Of a DNA stretch of 23,789 nt, positions 19 to 23,446 are shown one piece after another. The DNA is taken from IMG/VR virus record IMGVR_UViG_3300021137_000101, positions 1-23,789 of that record; one strand, given 5' to 3'. How positions within the stretch are numbered: the stretch's first letter is position 1; each line of letters starts with the position of its first letter. The notes under the pieces are model-generated. The model made no database searches and was not told where the DNA came from. It worked only from the letters and a program-made list of their open reading frames with translations. A program made the translations under genes and the position numbers. Origin of the DNA: a virus.

Positions 19-84
19 GGATTGTAAAGCCACGCCGGCCGGATTGTAAAGCCACGCCGGCCGGATTGTAAAGCCGCGCGCCTT
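19..84. repeat. 22-bp tandem repeats (iteron-like), left-end array
   Basis: Two perfect 22-bp units (19-40 and 41-62) are followed by a third (63-84) that matches for its first 13 bases and then diverges. Each contains ATTGTAAAG (starting at 21, 43 and 65) plus a GC-rich part that makes the palindrome CCGGCCGG at unit junctions. A 22-bp period is about two helical turns, so a bound protein would see all copies on one face of the DNA. The same 9-mer with the same spacing recurs inverted at 11191-11256. Seen: repeats and spacing. Inferred: initiator or regulator binding sites, possibly an origin. The array may continue outside the window. Confidence 0.7.
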
Positions 85-345: not shown

Positions 346-507
346 TTACTTGGGCGTGTGACCGCCGCCCTGTTTACCGTTCTCTCTTGCTGCTTTAACT
401 TTAGCTTCAGAGTTGGACTTACCGCCCTTTGAACCCATAGCTTTACCAGCCGAAGAAAGATTCGTATATTTAATTGAACCTGAATCGTTGCGTGTTGGTG
501 TACTCAT
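346..507 (-). CDS. Small basic Gly/Lys/Ser-rich phage protein (53 aa)
   Basis: The gene encodes 53 residues with the pattern SSAGKAMGSKGGKSNSEAK in the middle and a GKQGGGHTPK end. It has no membrane segment and few hydrophobic residues, so it is probably disordered and cationic. The ATG at 507 is preceded by AAGGA at good spacing. It is the last gene of the leftward replication block, 61 bp after the primase-helicase stop and just before the terminator-like RNA. The glycine-lysine pattern recalls small stress-type KGG-repeat proteins, but that is only a resemblance. Nucleic-acid binding is possible and unproven. It is probably real because of the RBS, position and codon-level composition. 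Confidence 0.65.
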   Translation of the reverse strand: MSTPTRNDSGSIKYTNLSSAGKAMGSKGGKSNSEAKVKAARENGKQGGGHTPK

Positions 508-10673: not shown

Positions 10674-10900
10674 GTCAAACTAGACTAGGTTCGTTTATTG
10701 AAGCATGGGTGAATGTACTGATAGGGTTTACCATTAATTACATCGCCAATTTGTTGATATTCCCGCTGTTTGGCTTTCACATTAGTCTGTTAGCTAACTT
10801 CTATATGGGTCTGCTATACACTGTCATCTCAGTAATTCGTAGCTATGCTGTTAGGCGTTGGTTCAATGCAAGATTGCATCGTTTATTGGCCAATATATGA
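10670..10900 (+). CDS. Small phage membrane protein, two TM segments (76 aa)
   Basis: ATGA overlap joins it to the DUF5664 gene. The pattern RLGSFIEAWVNVLIGFTINY, a second hydrophobic segment (LANFYMGLLYTVISVI) and RSYAVRRWFNARL at the end match a widespread family of tiny phage membrane proteins (DUF7220-like, from memory). Two membrane passes with a basic C-terminal helix facing the cytoplasm are predicted. Members often sit near early or accessory genes; no molecular function is known. Confidence 0.72.
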   Translation: MSQTRLGSFIEAWVNVLIGFTINYIANLLIFPLFGFHISLLANFYMGLLYTVISVIRSYAVRRWFNARLHRLLANI

Positions 10901-11040
10901 GCAGTTGGTTAATTGTTCTTACAGGCTTAATCTACGCTTATATAGCGGCAGAACAGCTTTTCAAAGGCAATCCATATATGACGGTTGTATATGGCGGCTA
11001 TGCTTTCTCTAACATCGGGCTGTATTTGTTGGCTAAATAA
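10897..11040 (+). CDS. Small membrane protein (47 aa)
   Basis: The start is ATG 10897, overlapping the previous TGA; a longer reading from 10858 would cut 43 bp into its neighbour. The 47-aa product has a hydrophobic segment (SSWLIVLTGLIYAYIAA), a short polar turn (EQLFKGNP) and a second hydrophobic segment to the end (VVYGGYAFSNIGLYLLAK). It is the last gene of the rightward train; its TAA runs into the A-tract of a leftward terminator. Function unknown. Confidence 0.65.
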   Translation: MSSWLIVLTGLIYAYIAAEQLFKGNPYMTVVYGGYAFSNIGLYLLAK

Positions 11041-11190: not shown

Positions 11191-11256
11191 AACTTTACAA
11201 TCCAATGTCAACAACTTTACAATCAGCCGTCAAAACTTTACAAAAATGTCAACAAA
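11191..11256. repeat. Iteron-like array, inverted relative to the left-end array
   Basis: AACTTTACA occurs at 11191, 11213 and 11234, spaced 22 and 21 bp; the first two continue as CTTTACAATC, the third as CTTTACAAAA. CTTTACAAT is the reverse complement of the ATTGTAAAG found three times with 22-bp spacing at 19-84. Each copy is followed by a GTCAA element, and a perfect TCAACA-AAAC-TGTTGA hairpin (11249-11264) ends the array. No gene lies in 11041-11357. Confidence 0.65.
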
Positions 11257-11341: not shown

Positions 11342-11372
11342 GTTACTAGACACAAAATTATTTGTCTAGTAA
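11342..11372. other. 3'-end hairpin of the peptidase gene (shared with 565-594)
   Basis: TTACTAGACA (11343-11352) and TGTCTAGTAA (11363-11372) form a perfect 10-bp stem with a 10-nt loop that contains the peptidase stop codon. The arrangement GTTACTAGACAC-N9-TGTCTAGTA is the same as at the end of the primase-helicase gene. On the plus strand a weak T-run (AAGTTTTTATA) follows some 8 nt later; on the minus strand none does. Confidence 0.55.
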
Positions 11373-11786
11373 TGAATAAGTTTTTATAGGCTCATGGCTT
11401 TTTAAATCTACATTGCAAGCCCATTTAACTGCTTCTTCTGCGGACAAGCCCATTCTCATGCAGACTTCGGCTGCCATTGCACCAGAACCAATAGCCATAA
11501 AGGTTTTAGCGCGTTCCCATTCAAGATCGTCATTACAATAAAAAAGACCTTCTTTAGTTAGCCTAATAAAAGAACTACCAGGCTTGAGCTTTGGTTTAAC
11601 TTTGCTTTTCTTATTGATGTAATCCACTACTTTTTCGCAATCGCTCCAATTGCCGGCCACGCCTAACCACCCGCCATCTATTGCGACAATTTTTTCTTCA
11701 AAATATTTAATGCCAGTATCTTCGTCTGAAAATTGACTATCCGATACCAAGATTTTTTTGTCCCAATCACCAACGATAGTAGTCAT
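11358..11786 (-). CDS. HslV/proteasome-beta-like Ntn-hydrolase (142 aa)
   Basis: With ATG 11786 the protein begins MTTIVGD, so removal of Met leaves Thr1, as in HslV and proteasome beta subunits. This start overlaps the upstream stop as ATGA; an alternative GTG at 11801 would add five residues and hide the threonine. Counting from Thr1, D15 (VSDSQ) and K31 (FEEKIVAI) fall where HslV has D17 and K33. The later AIGSGAMAAEV and LSAEEAVKWACNVD match the HslV GSG helix and following helix. It is shorter than HslV (about 175 aa) and no HslU-type ATPase is nearby. It could be a self-assembling peptidase or use host HslU. Fold call fairly firm; activity and substrate unknown. Confidence 0.72.
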   Translation of the reverse strand: MTTIVGDWDKKILVSDSQFSDEDTGIKYFEEKIVAIDGGWLGVAGNWSDCEKVVDYINKKSKVKPKLKPGSSFIRLTKEGLFYCNDDLEWERAKTFMAIGSGAMAAEVCMRMGLSAEEAVKWACNVDLKSHEPIKTYSLLDK

Positions 11787-12766
11787 ACTTTTGTTATGCA
11801 CCCACGAAATTCTATTTCTCCGTTTTCTTCATCGGACACCATAATCATCTCTGGCATTAGCATCCGGCCTTGGTCAAAGGATAGCATCACAAAGCCACTG
11901 CGCCAATCTTTAGGAGAATCCTCGCAATACTCGAAGGTACTGGACATCGGATCGGCCAAACAACCGGTCTGGATGCCCCAAAATGTGCCTTGAAAATTGG
12001 AAATCGGCTGGCAAGCAAGGACGTGCGTATGGCCAGTGATAATGTTGGTATTACCCGCCGCCAGCAAATTGCTGTAGCCAGCGGTGCGGCCACCTTTAAA
12101 CCGGTGTTTTACTACGGTATCTTCGCCAATCCAGAATGACCAACAAGTTTCCCAGTTGGGGAAATGGTACTTTAATGAAAAGCCATCTACACCGCTGTAT
12201 TCGGGAACTTTATTGACTAGCCAAGCCTCGTATCTCATATCATGGTTACCCAACGTCCATATTAGTCGGCAGCCAGCAGGTCTATGTTTCTCGATTTCAT
12301 CTAAATGCTGACGGCAAGCCTTGAGTTCTTCTAGGACACTAGGCTTTTGATCGTAATTAATGCTTGGAAAACGGCTTAAAACCTGCCCATCGAACGCATC
12401 GCCGTTGCAGATGATGACTTCTGGCTTGAATTTTTTAATCATCAACAGGAGGGCTTTAAAGGCCGTTGTGGTGGTGTCGGTAAAGTGGGCATCTGAGAAC
12501 ACAATGATGCGTTTGACTTTATCTACCTCAATACCCCTTCGGACATTGTGAGCTGCCAACTCAACCTTTTTAGGTTTAGGCTTAATTTGATCGCGTTGGG
12601 AATTATGGGTAGCCAATTTAATGCCAAGCCGGGTTTCAATACTGCTTCGCCTTCTCATGACACTAGAAGAAGCAACACCCAGCTTTTCAGCCATTAAGAC
12701 AGGAGAGCCTAGTTTAGCCCAAAGGTCTATAAATTCTTGATCTGTGCATACAAGTTTCAGTGCCAT
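11783..12766 (-). CDS. Calcineurin-type metallophosphoesterase with N-terminal HTH-like region
   Basis: This 327-aa protein has the full metallophosphoesterase motif set: FSDAHF, NGDAFD, LGNHD and GHTH, giving a two-metal active site. The first 60 or so residues (DQEFIDLWAKLGSPVLMAEK, then SSSVMRRRSSIETRLG) read like a helix-turn-helix that usually recognises DNA, followed by a Lys-rich linker. Such phage proteins are thought to be DNA-linked phosphatases or nucleases, but no substrate is known. ATG 12766 has AGAAGGG upstream. Its stop overlaps the start of the HslV-like peptidase, so the two are co-produced. Confidence 0.88.
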   Translation of the reverse strand: MALKLVCTDQEFIDLWAKLGSPVLMAEKLGVASSSVMRRRSSIETRLGIKLATHNSQRDQIKPKPKKVELAAHNVRRGIEVDKVKRIIVFSDAHFTDTTTTAFKALLLMIKKFKPEVIICNGDAFDGQVLSRFPSINYDQKPSVLEELKACRQHLDEIEKHRPAGCRLIWTLGNHDMRYEAWLVNKVPEYSGVDGFSLKYHFPNWETCWSFWIGEDTVVKHRFKGGRTAGYSNLLAAGNTNIITGHTHVLACQPISNFQGTFWGIQTGCLADPMSSTFEYCEDSPKDWRSGFVMLSFDQGRMLMPEMIMVSDEENGEIEFRGCITKV

Positions 12767-19933: not shown

Positions 19934-22900
19934 TTAAAAAGTTCCGCCATTGATACCACCTGTAATGGCATTAGTGGCTGCATCATAAGTTAAACCAGTA
20001 TTGACATAGTGCGTTTGGCTTCCTGATGTTCCTACAACAAACACTAAATAAGTAGGATTGCTAGTAGTGTTGGTTGAAACTACTGGCGTAATGCCACTGT
20101 AGCCTGAGATACCAGACCATCCAGAATAGCCAGAGATGCCTGATCCAGAATAGCCGCTAATGCCAGACCAACCAGAGTAGCCTGATATGCCTGAGCCAGA
20201 ATAGCCGCTAATACCAGACCAACCAGAATACCCGCTAATACCAGACCAGCCAGAGTATCCGCTGATACCAGAGCCACTATAACCACTGATACCAGACCAG
20301 CCAGAATAACCGCTGATACCTGACCAGCCAGAATAACCTGATACGCCTGATCCGCTGTAACCACTAATACCAGACCAGCCAGAATAGCCGCTGATGCCTG
20401 AGCCGCTGTAGCCGCTAATGCCAGACCAACCGCTGTAACCAGAGATTCCGCTAAAACCACTATAGCCACTAATGCCAGACCAGCCAGAGTAGCCGCTAAT
20501 CCCGCTACCAGAATAGCCGCTAATACCTGATCCGCTATAGCCTGAAATGCCGCTATATCCGCTGATGCCACTATAGCCAGAAATACCGCTGTAGCCTGAC
20601 TTCCCACTATAACCAGAGTAACCTGATTGACCATACATTACTTGTGTTGCGGTAAAGATTACAGATGGCGTTTCAGGATAAGTACCATTTCCAGCAATGG
20701 TTTCTAAAGAAACACTTGCATTATTAGTATCCCAATAAATTTCTACATAATCACTTGCATTTACATTAAATGCAAAATTGACAGTTAATATATTAGATGA
20801 ATAAATACCGCCAATTTTGTCTGGAACATCATAATGACTATTGGTATCAGAAATATTTGCGCCATTTTTCTTTAGCCAAACTTGCAAAGCACCCCATGAA
20901 TTGCTTGTATTAGTAATTTGAAGGGAAAAAGTAAGGCTATAAGTTCCAGCATTGGCAAAAGTTACTCTTGATCCGCTAACAACCGAAACTCCAGTATTGT
21001 TTGCGTCATAAGAATTAAAAGTAATTGCTGTTGGAGTATTGGCAGTTGTTGTTTGGGTTGTAGTATCCCAAAATGATCCCCAGTTACCAATAATACCGCC
21101 AGCGCCAACAGCACCAGAATATCCGCTAATACCAGAATAACCAGAAATGCCGCTGTAACCGCTAAAGCCTGAATAACCGGATACACCTGAGCCTGAATAA
21201 CCGCTAATGCCACTGCCGGAATAACCGCTGATACCAGACCAACCTGAATAGCCACTAATACCGCTAAAGCCTGATGCGCCGTTAATTCCGCTATAGCCGC
21301 TAATGCCAGACCGACCAGAGTATCCGCTGATGCCGCTGTACCCGCTGATGCCAGAACCAGAATAACCACTAATGCCAGACCAGCCACTATAGCCGGAGAT
21401 GCCAGACCAGCCACTATAGCCGCTAATGCCGCTGTACCCGCTGATGCCAGACCAGCCTGATACTCCCGAACCACTATAGCCTGAAATACCTGAATAGCCA
21501 CTAAAACCACTGATGCCACTAAAGCCACTGATACCATTGGCAACGGCAAAAATAACATTTTGATTATTACTAAAACCTGTAGTACCAGTCCCCGCAGAGG
21601 AAATTAAAGATACTGGAATAGTGAAATACCCGCCGGCATTAGTTGGTGTAGCGGTAATTTTCCACGTTTGAGAATTTGCACTATTACTTTGATCTTGAAT
21701 AACTACTTCTTCAGTTGTGGCCAGCAAAGCCAAGAACACACTGATATCAACGCTATTGGCTGTTAGATTGCTAACATTCAATTGAGTCGCGCTAGTTTGT
21801 ATTAGATTGTTCCAAAGCAGATAGTCAGCGCCCGGATCACCGCTAGTCGCTAAAGCATTCGCTTTATAGAAGTAGTAGCTACTGGATATACCGCTTGCGC
21901 CTGAGTATCCGCTGATGCCAGACCAGCCTGAATAGCCAGAAATTCCGCTATATCCTGAAATGCCAGAATAGCCTGAAATCCCGCTAAAGCCAGAATAGCC
22001 GCTGATGCCGCTATAGCCTGACTCTCCAGAAAAGCCAGAGTAACCAGAAATACCTGAGAAACCTGACTCACCAGAAAAGCCTGAATAACCCGATATACCT
22101 GAAAATCCAGAGTAACCAGATTCTCCAGAGAATCCGCTATAGCCTGAAATACCGCTAAATCCTGATTCGCCTGAAAATCCTGAATAACCCGAAATCCCGC
22201 TATCACCAGAATATCCAGAGATACCACTATAGCCAGACTCGCCGCTATAGCCGGAAATTCCGCTATAACCGCTGACGCCTGAAAATCCAGAATAGCCGCT
22301 GATACCAGACCAACCTGAAAAGCCGCTGATACCAGACCAACCTGAAAAGCCGCTGATGCCAGAGTCACCAGAATAACCAGAGATGCCTGACCAACCGCTG
22401 AGGCCAGAGTCACCAGAATAGCCTGAGATACCAGAATAGCCAGAAATGCCAGAACCCGAATATCCAGAAAAGCCTGAATAGCCCGATACACCGCTTCCGG
22501 AATATCCGCTAATGCCAGAATAGCCAGACTCACCAGACCAGCCAGAATAGCCGCTGATGCCAGAGTCACCGCTATAGCCAGACTCGCCACTGTAGCCCGA
22601 TATGCCTGAACCAGAGTAACCGCTAAAGCCTGAATAGCCAGAGAAGCCAGAATAGCCAGAATTGCCTTGGCCAGTTAATTGAGTAAAGGTAATTGGTGTA
22701 TGGTCGATGTAGCCCACTTCAGGAACAATCGCTACCCAGCCAGTGTTGGCATTTACACCGCCATTAATAATAAAAGTAAACGCGCCGGGGACTTCAGCCC
22801 AGACGGCCATATCCGCAGCTCGCGCCCATGCGCCAGATGAAGCTATATAGATGCCGTTGTAATTTGCATTGTCTTGATTTTTAACTAAGACGCGATCTTG

Positions 22901-23446
22901 ATCTACAGTTTGGTAACCATCAATAATTGGAAAACCAGATAAATCAATGTTTCCTTCCAATGGCGTAGTAGCGCACTGGCATTCTGGTTTTGGGCTAAAG
23001 CCAACAATGACGCTATCTAAATAAGCCTTATTCACTAAGTCAGTAGGATTTACTGGTACAGAGTCAACTTGACCTGTAGTAGTCCGCATATTATCAAAAT
23101 AAGCTGACAGTTCACCAGTCAATAATTGTGGGAATTGAACAAACGCATCACCAGTGCCAGCAGTCATTAAGTTGACTGCAAAATCGCCAGCCTTCCAAGC
23201 TCTAGGCGTTGTACCTTCTTGGCCGCGAACGACAGTCAGCGCATCGCCAACAACGGCGGTAACCAAAACAATCTCAACGATGAGGCTGTTTAACGCATCA
23301 ACTAAAGTGAGCTTAAAGGCTTCATCTACACCGGGATTCGGAAAGTAGGCTGCCGTACCACCCGCGACATAAAGCGTTGTTGCAGTGCTAGTAGCAGGGT
23401 AAGCTAAAGTAGTTTGAGCTTGATTCGCAAACAGTAGGATTGTCAT
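19934..23446 (-). CDS. Giant tail fibre with proline-free collagen-like repeats and a C1q-like domain
   Basis: In this 1170-aa protein residues 1 to about 260 form phage-type fibre domains (MTILLFANQAQTTLAYPATS, RGQEGTTPRAW, DLVNKAYLD, VLVKNQDNANYNGIY). Three collagen-like blocks of G-X-S triplets with X = Tyr, Ile, Phe or Trp follow, at about 261-519, 637-780 and 940-1119. Between them are a globular insert (about 520-636) and a C1q/TNF-like jelly roll (about 785-930, with GTYSLTFSLQITNTSN and YVEIYWD). The end is a 50-aa cap (YVNTGLTYDAATNAITGGIN). Two-residue breaks (GYS-GS-GIS) recur. It is probably a trimeric fibre that precedes the S74 fibre in the operon. Confidence 0.88.
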   Translation of the reverse strand: MTILLFANQAQTTLAYPATSTATTLYVAGGTAAYFPNPGVDEAFKLTLVDALNSLIVEIVLVTAVVGDALTVVRGQEGTTPRAWKAGDFAVNLMTAGTGDAFVQFPQLLTGELSAYFDNMRTTTGQVDSVPVNPTDLVNKAYLDSVIVGFSPKPECQCATTPLEGNIDLSGFPIIDGYQTVDQDRVLVKNQDNANYNGIYIASSGAWARAADMAVWAEVPGAFTFIINGGVNANTGWVAIVPEVGYIDHTPITFTQLTGQGNSGYSGFSGYSGFSGYSGSGISGYSGESGYSGDSGISGYSGWSGESGYSGISGYSGSGVSGYSGFSGYSGSGISGYSGISGYSGDSGLSGWSGISGYSGDSGISGFSGWSGISGFSGWSGISGYSGFSGVSGYSGISGYSGESGYSGISGYSGDSGISGYSGFSGESGFSGISGYSGFSGESGYSGFSGISGYSGFSGESGFSGISGYSGFSGESGYSGISGYSGFSGISGYSGISGYSGISGYSGWSGISGYSGASGISSSYYFYKANALATSGDPGADYLLWNNLIQTSATQLNVSNLTANSVDISVFLALLATTEEVVIQDQSNSANSQTWKITATPTNAGGYFTIPVSLISSAGTGTTGFSNNQNVIFAVANGISGFSGISGFSGYSGISGYSGSGVSGWSGISGYSGISGYSGWSGISGYSGWSGISGYSGSGISGYSGISGYSGRSGISGYSGINGASGFSGISGYSGWSGISGYSGSGISGYSGSGVSGYSGFSGYSGISGYSGISGYSGAVGAGGIIGNWGSFWDTTTQTTTANTPTAITFNSYDANNTGVSVVSGSRVTFANAGTYSLTFSLQITNTSNSWGALQVWLKKNGANISDTNSHYDVPDKIGGIYSSNILTVNFAFNVNASDYVEIYWDTNNASVSLETIAGNGTYPETPSVIFTATQVMYGQSGYSGYSGKSGYSGISGYSGISGYSGISGYSGSGISGYSGSGISGYSGWSGISGYSGFSGISGYSGWSGISGYSGSGISGYSGWSGISGYSGSGVSGYSGWSGISGYSGWSGISGYSGSGISGYSGWSGISGYSGWSGISGYSGSGISGYSGWSGISGYSGSGISGYSGWSGISGYSGITPVVSTNTTSNPTYLVFVVGTSGSQTHYVNTGLTYDAATNAITGGINGGTF
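20090..22666 (-). repeat. Collagen-like coding repeats in three blocks
   Basis: Blocks lie at 21888-22666, 21105-21538 and 20090-20627. All code for Gly-[Tyr/Ile/Phe/Trp]-Ser triplets, with a few Glu, Asp, Arg or Lys and no proline. Synonymous codons for Gly, Ser and the variable residue are mixed rather than copied, so most units differ in DNA. Long open frames in other phases within these blocks are by-products of the 9-bp period. Confidence 0.8.

Follow-up and report, generated by a model that had tools for sequence, protein, structure and literature searches.

Three-box arrays in phage genomes resemble the operator of a bacterial HTH-GHKL-STAS regulator and may serve as DNA decoys

CapK and CapS regulate immune operons of bacteria, and VapKSC is a related system (PMC13373217). 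CapK has the domain order HTH-STAS-GHKL and is encoded next to the gene for a STAS-wHTH repressor, capS; the system binds TTAA palindromes and controls an immune operon (PMC13373217). CapK acts as a sensor for single-stranded DNA, a form of DNA that phages produce, and the same has been predicted for VapK (PMC13373217). The bacterial regulator family considered here resembles these systems in combining HTH, GHKL and STAS domains in a DNA-binding, apparently autoregulated switch (PMC13373217), its own binding to DNA being putative. In contrast to CapK/CapS, it consists of a single protein with the order HTH-GHKL-STAS, and its operator is composed of three direct repeats at a spacing of 21/22 bp. 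With the order HTH-GHKL-DUF4325 and no capS-like neighbour, the family falls outside the definition of CapK/CapS (PMC13373217); neither a capS-like partner nor an immune operon was seen in seven bacterial neighbourhoods.

Putative copies of this operator are found in viral DNA. The window, i.e. the whole stretch of 23,789 bp that was analysed, is an IMG/VR record of a lake phage and probably a fragment. It carries a left and a central array in opposite orientation (Table 1). The initial annotation had placed three copies of a 9-mer at 21-73 and three reverse-complement copies at 11193-11244; these positions are exact, and the deviating third copy is TTTGTAAAG. Read in motif direction, the boxes are spaced at 22/22 bp in the left and at 21/22 bp in the central array, which upholds the view that both arrays share one motif with a phasing of two helical turns. 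A chance origin had been regarded as unlikely, and this was borne out by a comparison with 200 first-order Markov sequences matched to the window in length: four pairs of WTTGTAAAG at a distance of 20-23 bp are present in the window and none in any of the simulated sequences. An exact count over the whole record confined ATTGTAAAG to the left array and two of the central copies, so that the 9-mer is not evenly common.

Table 1. Boxes of the two arrays and the genes facing them in the window.
Feature	Position	Strand	Sequence or remark
Left array, box 1	21..29	+	ATTGTAAAG
Left array, box 2	43..51	+	ATTGTAAAG; +22
Left array, box 3	65..73	+	ATTGTAAAG; +22
53-aa gene	346..507	-	3' end faces left array; conserved in L006, L009 and L011
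60-aa gene	10858..11040	+	3' end faces central array; 7 of the 20 array records have this family
Central array, box 3	11193..11201	-	ATTGTAAAG; +22 in motif direction
Central array, box 2	11215..11223	-	ATTGTAAAG; +21 in motif direction
Central array, box 1	11236..11244	-	TTTGTAAAG in motif direction
147-aa HslV-like peptidase gene	11358..11801	-	3' end faces central array; phrog_1040, 2.6e-27

According to mechanical ORF calls, on which all statements on gene context are based, both arrays lie between convergent operons, and not simply downstream of a leftward operon as had been proposed. The central gap is bordered by a rightward gene ending at 11040 and the leftward gene at 11358-11801. The left gap is also convergent: in the related contig L006, which extends past the window end, genes face the array from the other side. 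The left gap further contains a 37-bp repeat, GATTTTAAGGTTTTACA(A/G)GGAAAAAGCTAAAAAA, in 2.3 copies at 172-258, of which L006 has a single copy; from 4690 on, past the left end of the window, L006 is GC-rich with many GGCC/GCGC runs. At 19934-23446, the window encodes a 1170-aa protein with long GYSG(I/W/F)SG repeats and a collagen-like look, which adjoins tail-fibre-like genes.

The arrays recur in relatives of the window phage, in part. L006 and G002 (48964-49016) share the left array together with its flank, and the central array is conserved in G002 at 10794 and in G005 at 12103; in G002, a record of 49.6 kb, the two arrays point in opposite directions, as they do in the window. Over a 1.4-kb central region, L124, L204 and L207 match the window at 99-100% identity. 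The expected conservation in relatives with conserved flanks does not extend to L011 (primase 83%), in which the gap matching the left-array gap lacks the array and the neighbouring genes are conserved. In this array-less gap (L011:3231-3290), AATGAGAATGATTCTCATTT and a variant of it form two palindromes that, by eye, are Fur-box-like and possibly a site of another host regulator. In L009 (10352-10771) and L011 (2491-2900), an extra gene lies between the primase gene and the 53-aa gene; its product looks like a GIY-YIG endonuclease with KGG-like C-terminal motifs, and similar KGG/NGK motifs were noticed by eye in the 53-aa protein, which has no match in PHROG.

A scan of IMG/VR for three TTGTAAAG boxes, allowing a spacing of 19-25 bp, yielded at least 118 stretches with a ATTGTAAAG-type triple. 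Among the matches listed, the spacing is 21 or 22 bp in 120 of 127 array readings, with 21 followed by 22 in 81. The same matches comprise 72 distinct 21/22-bp arrays, in which the box (A/T)TTGTAAAGTT(A/T) is conserved and the spacers are variable, and their flanking DNA sorts them into at least eight unrelated groups. Viral contigs are mostly incomplete; a detailed scan covered 20 records, of which G033, G034 and a few more are partial or fragments. Two arrays are present in G002, G033 and the window and one in each of the other 17 records. No further degenerate arrays were detected in the 20 records by a relaxed scan, nor did any of them yield a triple with the backwards control motif. In many central-type arrays (e.g. 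L111, L114 and L137), a GACTTATTAAAGAGTC-like inverted repeat just past box 3 is followed by a conserved tail, CTTAAATA..TTAAAGCC; the central gap also has a CCCGAACGGG palindrome common to many phages.

Replication-initiator iterons or a pair of origins had been proposed as functions of the arrays. Like the iterons of plasmid origins, the arrays are direct repeats of about 22 bp in helix phase; those of the window lie in non-coding DNA, and both the window and G002 have two of them in opposite orientation. In contrast to plasmid iterons, however, they are freely located, usually as a single array per record, in unrelated places that include genes, and their bacterial counterpart is an operator array at a promoter (see below). 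As the initial annotation had already stated, no initiator gene is recognised: the gene families of the window comprise primase, polymerase, nucleases and helicase, an iteron-binding initiator was not recognised among them, and no initiator family is shared among the array records. The GC skew, suggested as a check for an origin, follows gene direction and gives no independent origin signal. Altogether, a role as replication iterons or origins is very improbable.

The spread of the array in phages is, at the level of sequence, wide and position-free and not special to the window phage. Arrays are located between convergent genes, past terminators, beside tRNA genes and within coding sequence, and the genes beside them vary between phages. 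Of the 72 distinct arrays among the matches listed, 41 are more than 200 bp away from any ORF start, and 15 are embedded in ORFs of at least 120 aa on either strand. An RNA-level element was rejected, the array strand being independent of transcription. A cobS-like phage gene illustrates how arrays occur in coding sequence: among 80 homologues, 56 have no box, five have one, nine have two, and ten have three. In the alignment, the boxes fall into a variable linker and the reading frame is kept, so that selection looks to act on the array rather than on the gene.

These settings bear on the possibility that the array is an operator that places a neighbouring phage promoter under the state of a host protein. 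The same site is promoter-proximal in bacteria, and 10 of the 72 distinct arrays among the matches listed are indeed found within 200 bp of an ORF start in host-like orientation. However, 56 of these 72 arrays are either farther than 200 bp from any ORF start or inside long ORFs, both window arrays lie between convergent 3' ends, and the neighbouring genes change from phage to phage. Control of a phage promoter is therefore rather unlikely. A capture site fits better than a promoter element because the copies seem to be free in position and strand.

The bacterial counterpart was identified in GTDB. Among 84,980 bacterial and archaeal species genomes, a strict triple, with ATTG required in all three boxes, is found in 20 stretches, which were divided according to spacer similarity (at least 69% versus at most 67% alike), the division being drawn after the matches were known. 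On this basis, 13 of the 20 are tandem repeats, none of which was assigned to the HTH-GHKL-DUF4325 family, whereas all seven non-repetitive matches are located directly upstream of an HTH-GHKL-DUF4325 gene. The titles of the respective genomes name Alphaproteobacteria, Gammaproteobacteria, Thiotrichales, Lysobacteraceae and Phycisphaeraceae. Ten carrier genomes were examined: in nine of them, of 1.6-4.5 Mb, the exact paired box is confined to the promoter of the regulator gene; G358, the tenth, lacks an exact pair, as one base of its array is changed. Within one class, 31 of the 369 genomes sampled have the family, with one match each, and further carriers were not found among 11 genomes of one order.

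The ends of Mu and Tn7-like elements offer another parallel, since MuA and TnsB ends consist of three sites per end of about 22 bp in opposite orientation. The window arrays resemble such ends in copy number, spacing and orientation and might thus be transposon ends with 22-bp transposase sites or decoy ends for target immunity. Most phages have only one array, though, and no transposase was evident by eye among the listed neighbour ORFs or the window families. The non-repetitive bacterial matches, moreover, are at the HTH-GHKL-DUF4325 promoter. On this basis, transposon ends appear exceedingly improbable.

The proteins encoded downstream of the bacterial arrays have about 350 aa and consist of an N-terminal MarR-like HTH, a SpoIIAB-like GHKL ATPase and the STAS-like domain DUF4325 (PF14213). 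Comparison with PADLOC and NCBIfam gave weak partial matches only, and the family is nearly absent from the literature, DUF4325 being hardly mentioned in the open papers searched. A de novo search, in which no box was assumed, recovered a repeat of three copies at 21/22 bp from most family members; it is located some 35-110 bp ahead of the start and exceeds shuffled sequences. In L303, L308, L320-L323 and L326, the repeat is near the null, so a clear array is not universal in the family. Box types include CTTTACAAT, TTTAAGAAA, TTGTCGA, GTTTACAAA, GTTGACAAA, TGTTGTCGA and others. The box type follows the regulator protein tree while the three-box 21/22-bp layout persists across the family, as would be predicted for an array that is the operator of the regulator itself. 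This correspondence of box and clade also lends indirect support to putative binding by the regulator.

An AlphaFold2 model of the regulator is fairly confident (mean pLDDT 81, pTM 0.68). The top match of the model among solved structures is the anti-sigma kinase SpoIIAB (1til, TM 0.75 by target length), via the GHKL domain. This predicted likeness recalls the partner switches SpoIIAB-SpoIIAA and RsbW-RsbV, from which the present family differs in that its GHKL domain is fused to an HTH domain, is encoded by a standalone gene and has no known sigma-factor role. Weaker matches of the model include TopoVI-B and GyrB. The GHKL fold and these weaker similarities would be compatible with an ATPase that closes round DNA and is loaded at the array for protection, condensation, segregation or silencing of the whole genome, like ParB at parS. 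One position-free array in most records and the ordered 21/22-bp geometry would also suit such a clamp. However, the best modelled match is an anti-sigma kinase, and the bacterial site is tied to one promoter with no sign of spreading, which makes loading of a DNA clamp improbable.

Based on the exclusive association with one gene family and the correspondence of box and clade, the identity of the site as an operator of the HTH-GHKL-DUF4325 family, ATTGTAAAG type, is well supported by sequence comparison. The window arrays have three direct boxes, the 21/22-bp spacing and a box sequence of the family. They are not at the promoter of a regulator gene, and phage arrays are mostly away from gene starts; for this reason, they are termed copies of the operator and not operators.

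The HTH-GHKL-DUF4325 gene is absent from the array phages examined, and the gene families of the window gave no match to the regulator. INPHARED and PLSDB contain no match to the regulator, and the idea that it is encoded by phages or plasmids was discarded. A phage-encoded binding factor was likewise rejected, as no protein family is common to all array carriers in the 20 records. Of the earlier proposal that the arrays are sites for a phage regulator, the part concerning a regulator site thus stands, while the phage-encoded candidates (primase-helicase and 53-aa protein) do not: the regulator appears to be a host chromosomal protein. Nine IMG/VR contigs, L327-L335, encode a family member; they are not among the array carriers examined and could be phage, prophage or host DNA.

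Other box types are also found in viral contigs. Triples of TTTCTTAAAGGA, the type in the promoter of the family member L307, are present on L362, L363, L364 and L367, two of which share the same array. L348 and L344, the latter with portal and terminase genes, carry TTTGTCAAC triples whose spacers have diverged. TTGTCGA triples in viral contigs are mostly coding or tandem repeats, with no convincing array. A host member with the form commonest in phages (21/22 bp, often with TTTGTAAAG first) was not found by the bacterial scan, which demanded ATTG in all boxes.

Taken together, the window arrays are probably copies of an operator with three boxes that belongs to a host HTH-GHKL-STAS protein, and the phage probably carries them as a DNA capture or decoy site; we hold this explanation with moderate confidence. 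We infer the decoy function from the distribution of the copies. It would involve binding of the protein to the array, a host of the window phage that has a family member with the matching box, and a benefit that lies in capture rather than in recruitment. Upon infection, the phage genome would provide the host regulator with extra sites, which phage replication would multiply, and the regulator would be pulled off its own promoter or kept in a DNA-bound state. A self-repressor that is titrated is made in larger amounts; therefore, such a decoy would need either host shut-off or an inactive bound state. Capture by phage DNA of a regulator of the type that senses single-stranded DNA is attractive by analogy with CapK, but the present family has a different domain order, gene context and operator.

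Titration by operator decoys has been described: when additional binding sites are present, less of a factor that regulates itself is free (e.g. PMC4374843). In contrast to such titration circuits, the present decoys would be natural, phage-borne and aimed at a host factor. No case of natural phage-borne decoy sites against a host factor was found in the open papers searched; precedents may exist elsewhere. Phage sponges for immune signals, such as Acb and Tad, are proteins that bind nucleotides and achieve counter-defence by sequestration. The arrays would share the principle of sequestration, whereas the sponge would here be DNA that binds a protein. More tentatively, and with less confidence than the decoy reading itself, many phage lineages may have independently built and kept operator copies as a new counter-measure made of DNA, which would trap the host HTH-GHKL-STAS sensor, akin in design to immune regulators that sense single-stranded DNA, and block the response to infection.

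The analysis flags a chromosomal sensor family as relevant to phages and provides a predicted binding site for several of its clades. If the decoy reading is true, a nucleic-acid sponge would join the known ways in which phages blunt host responses, and hosts of uncultured phages could be found by pairing the operator type of the phage with the regulator type of the bacterium.
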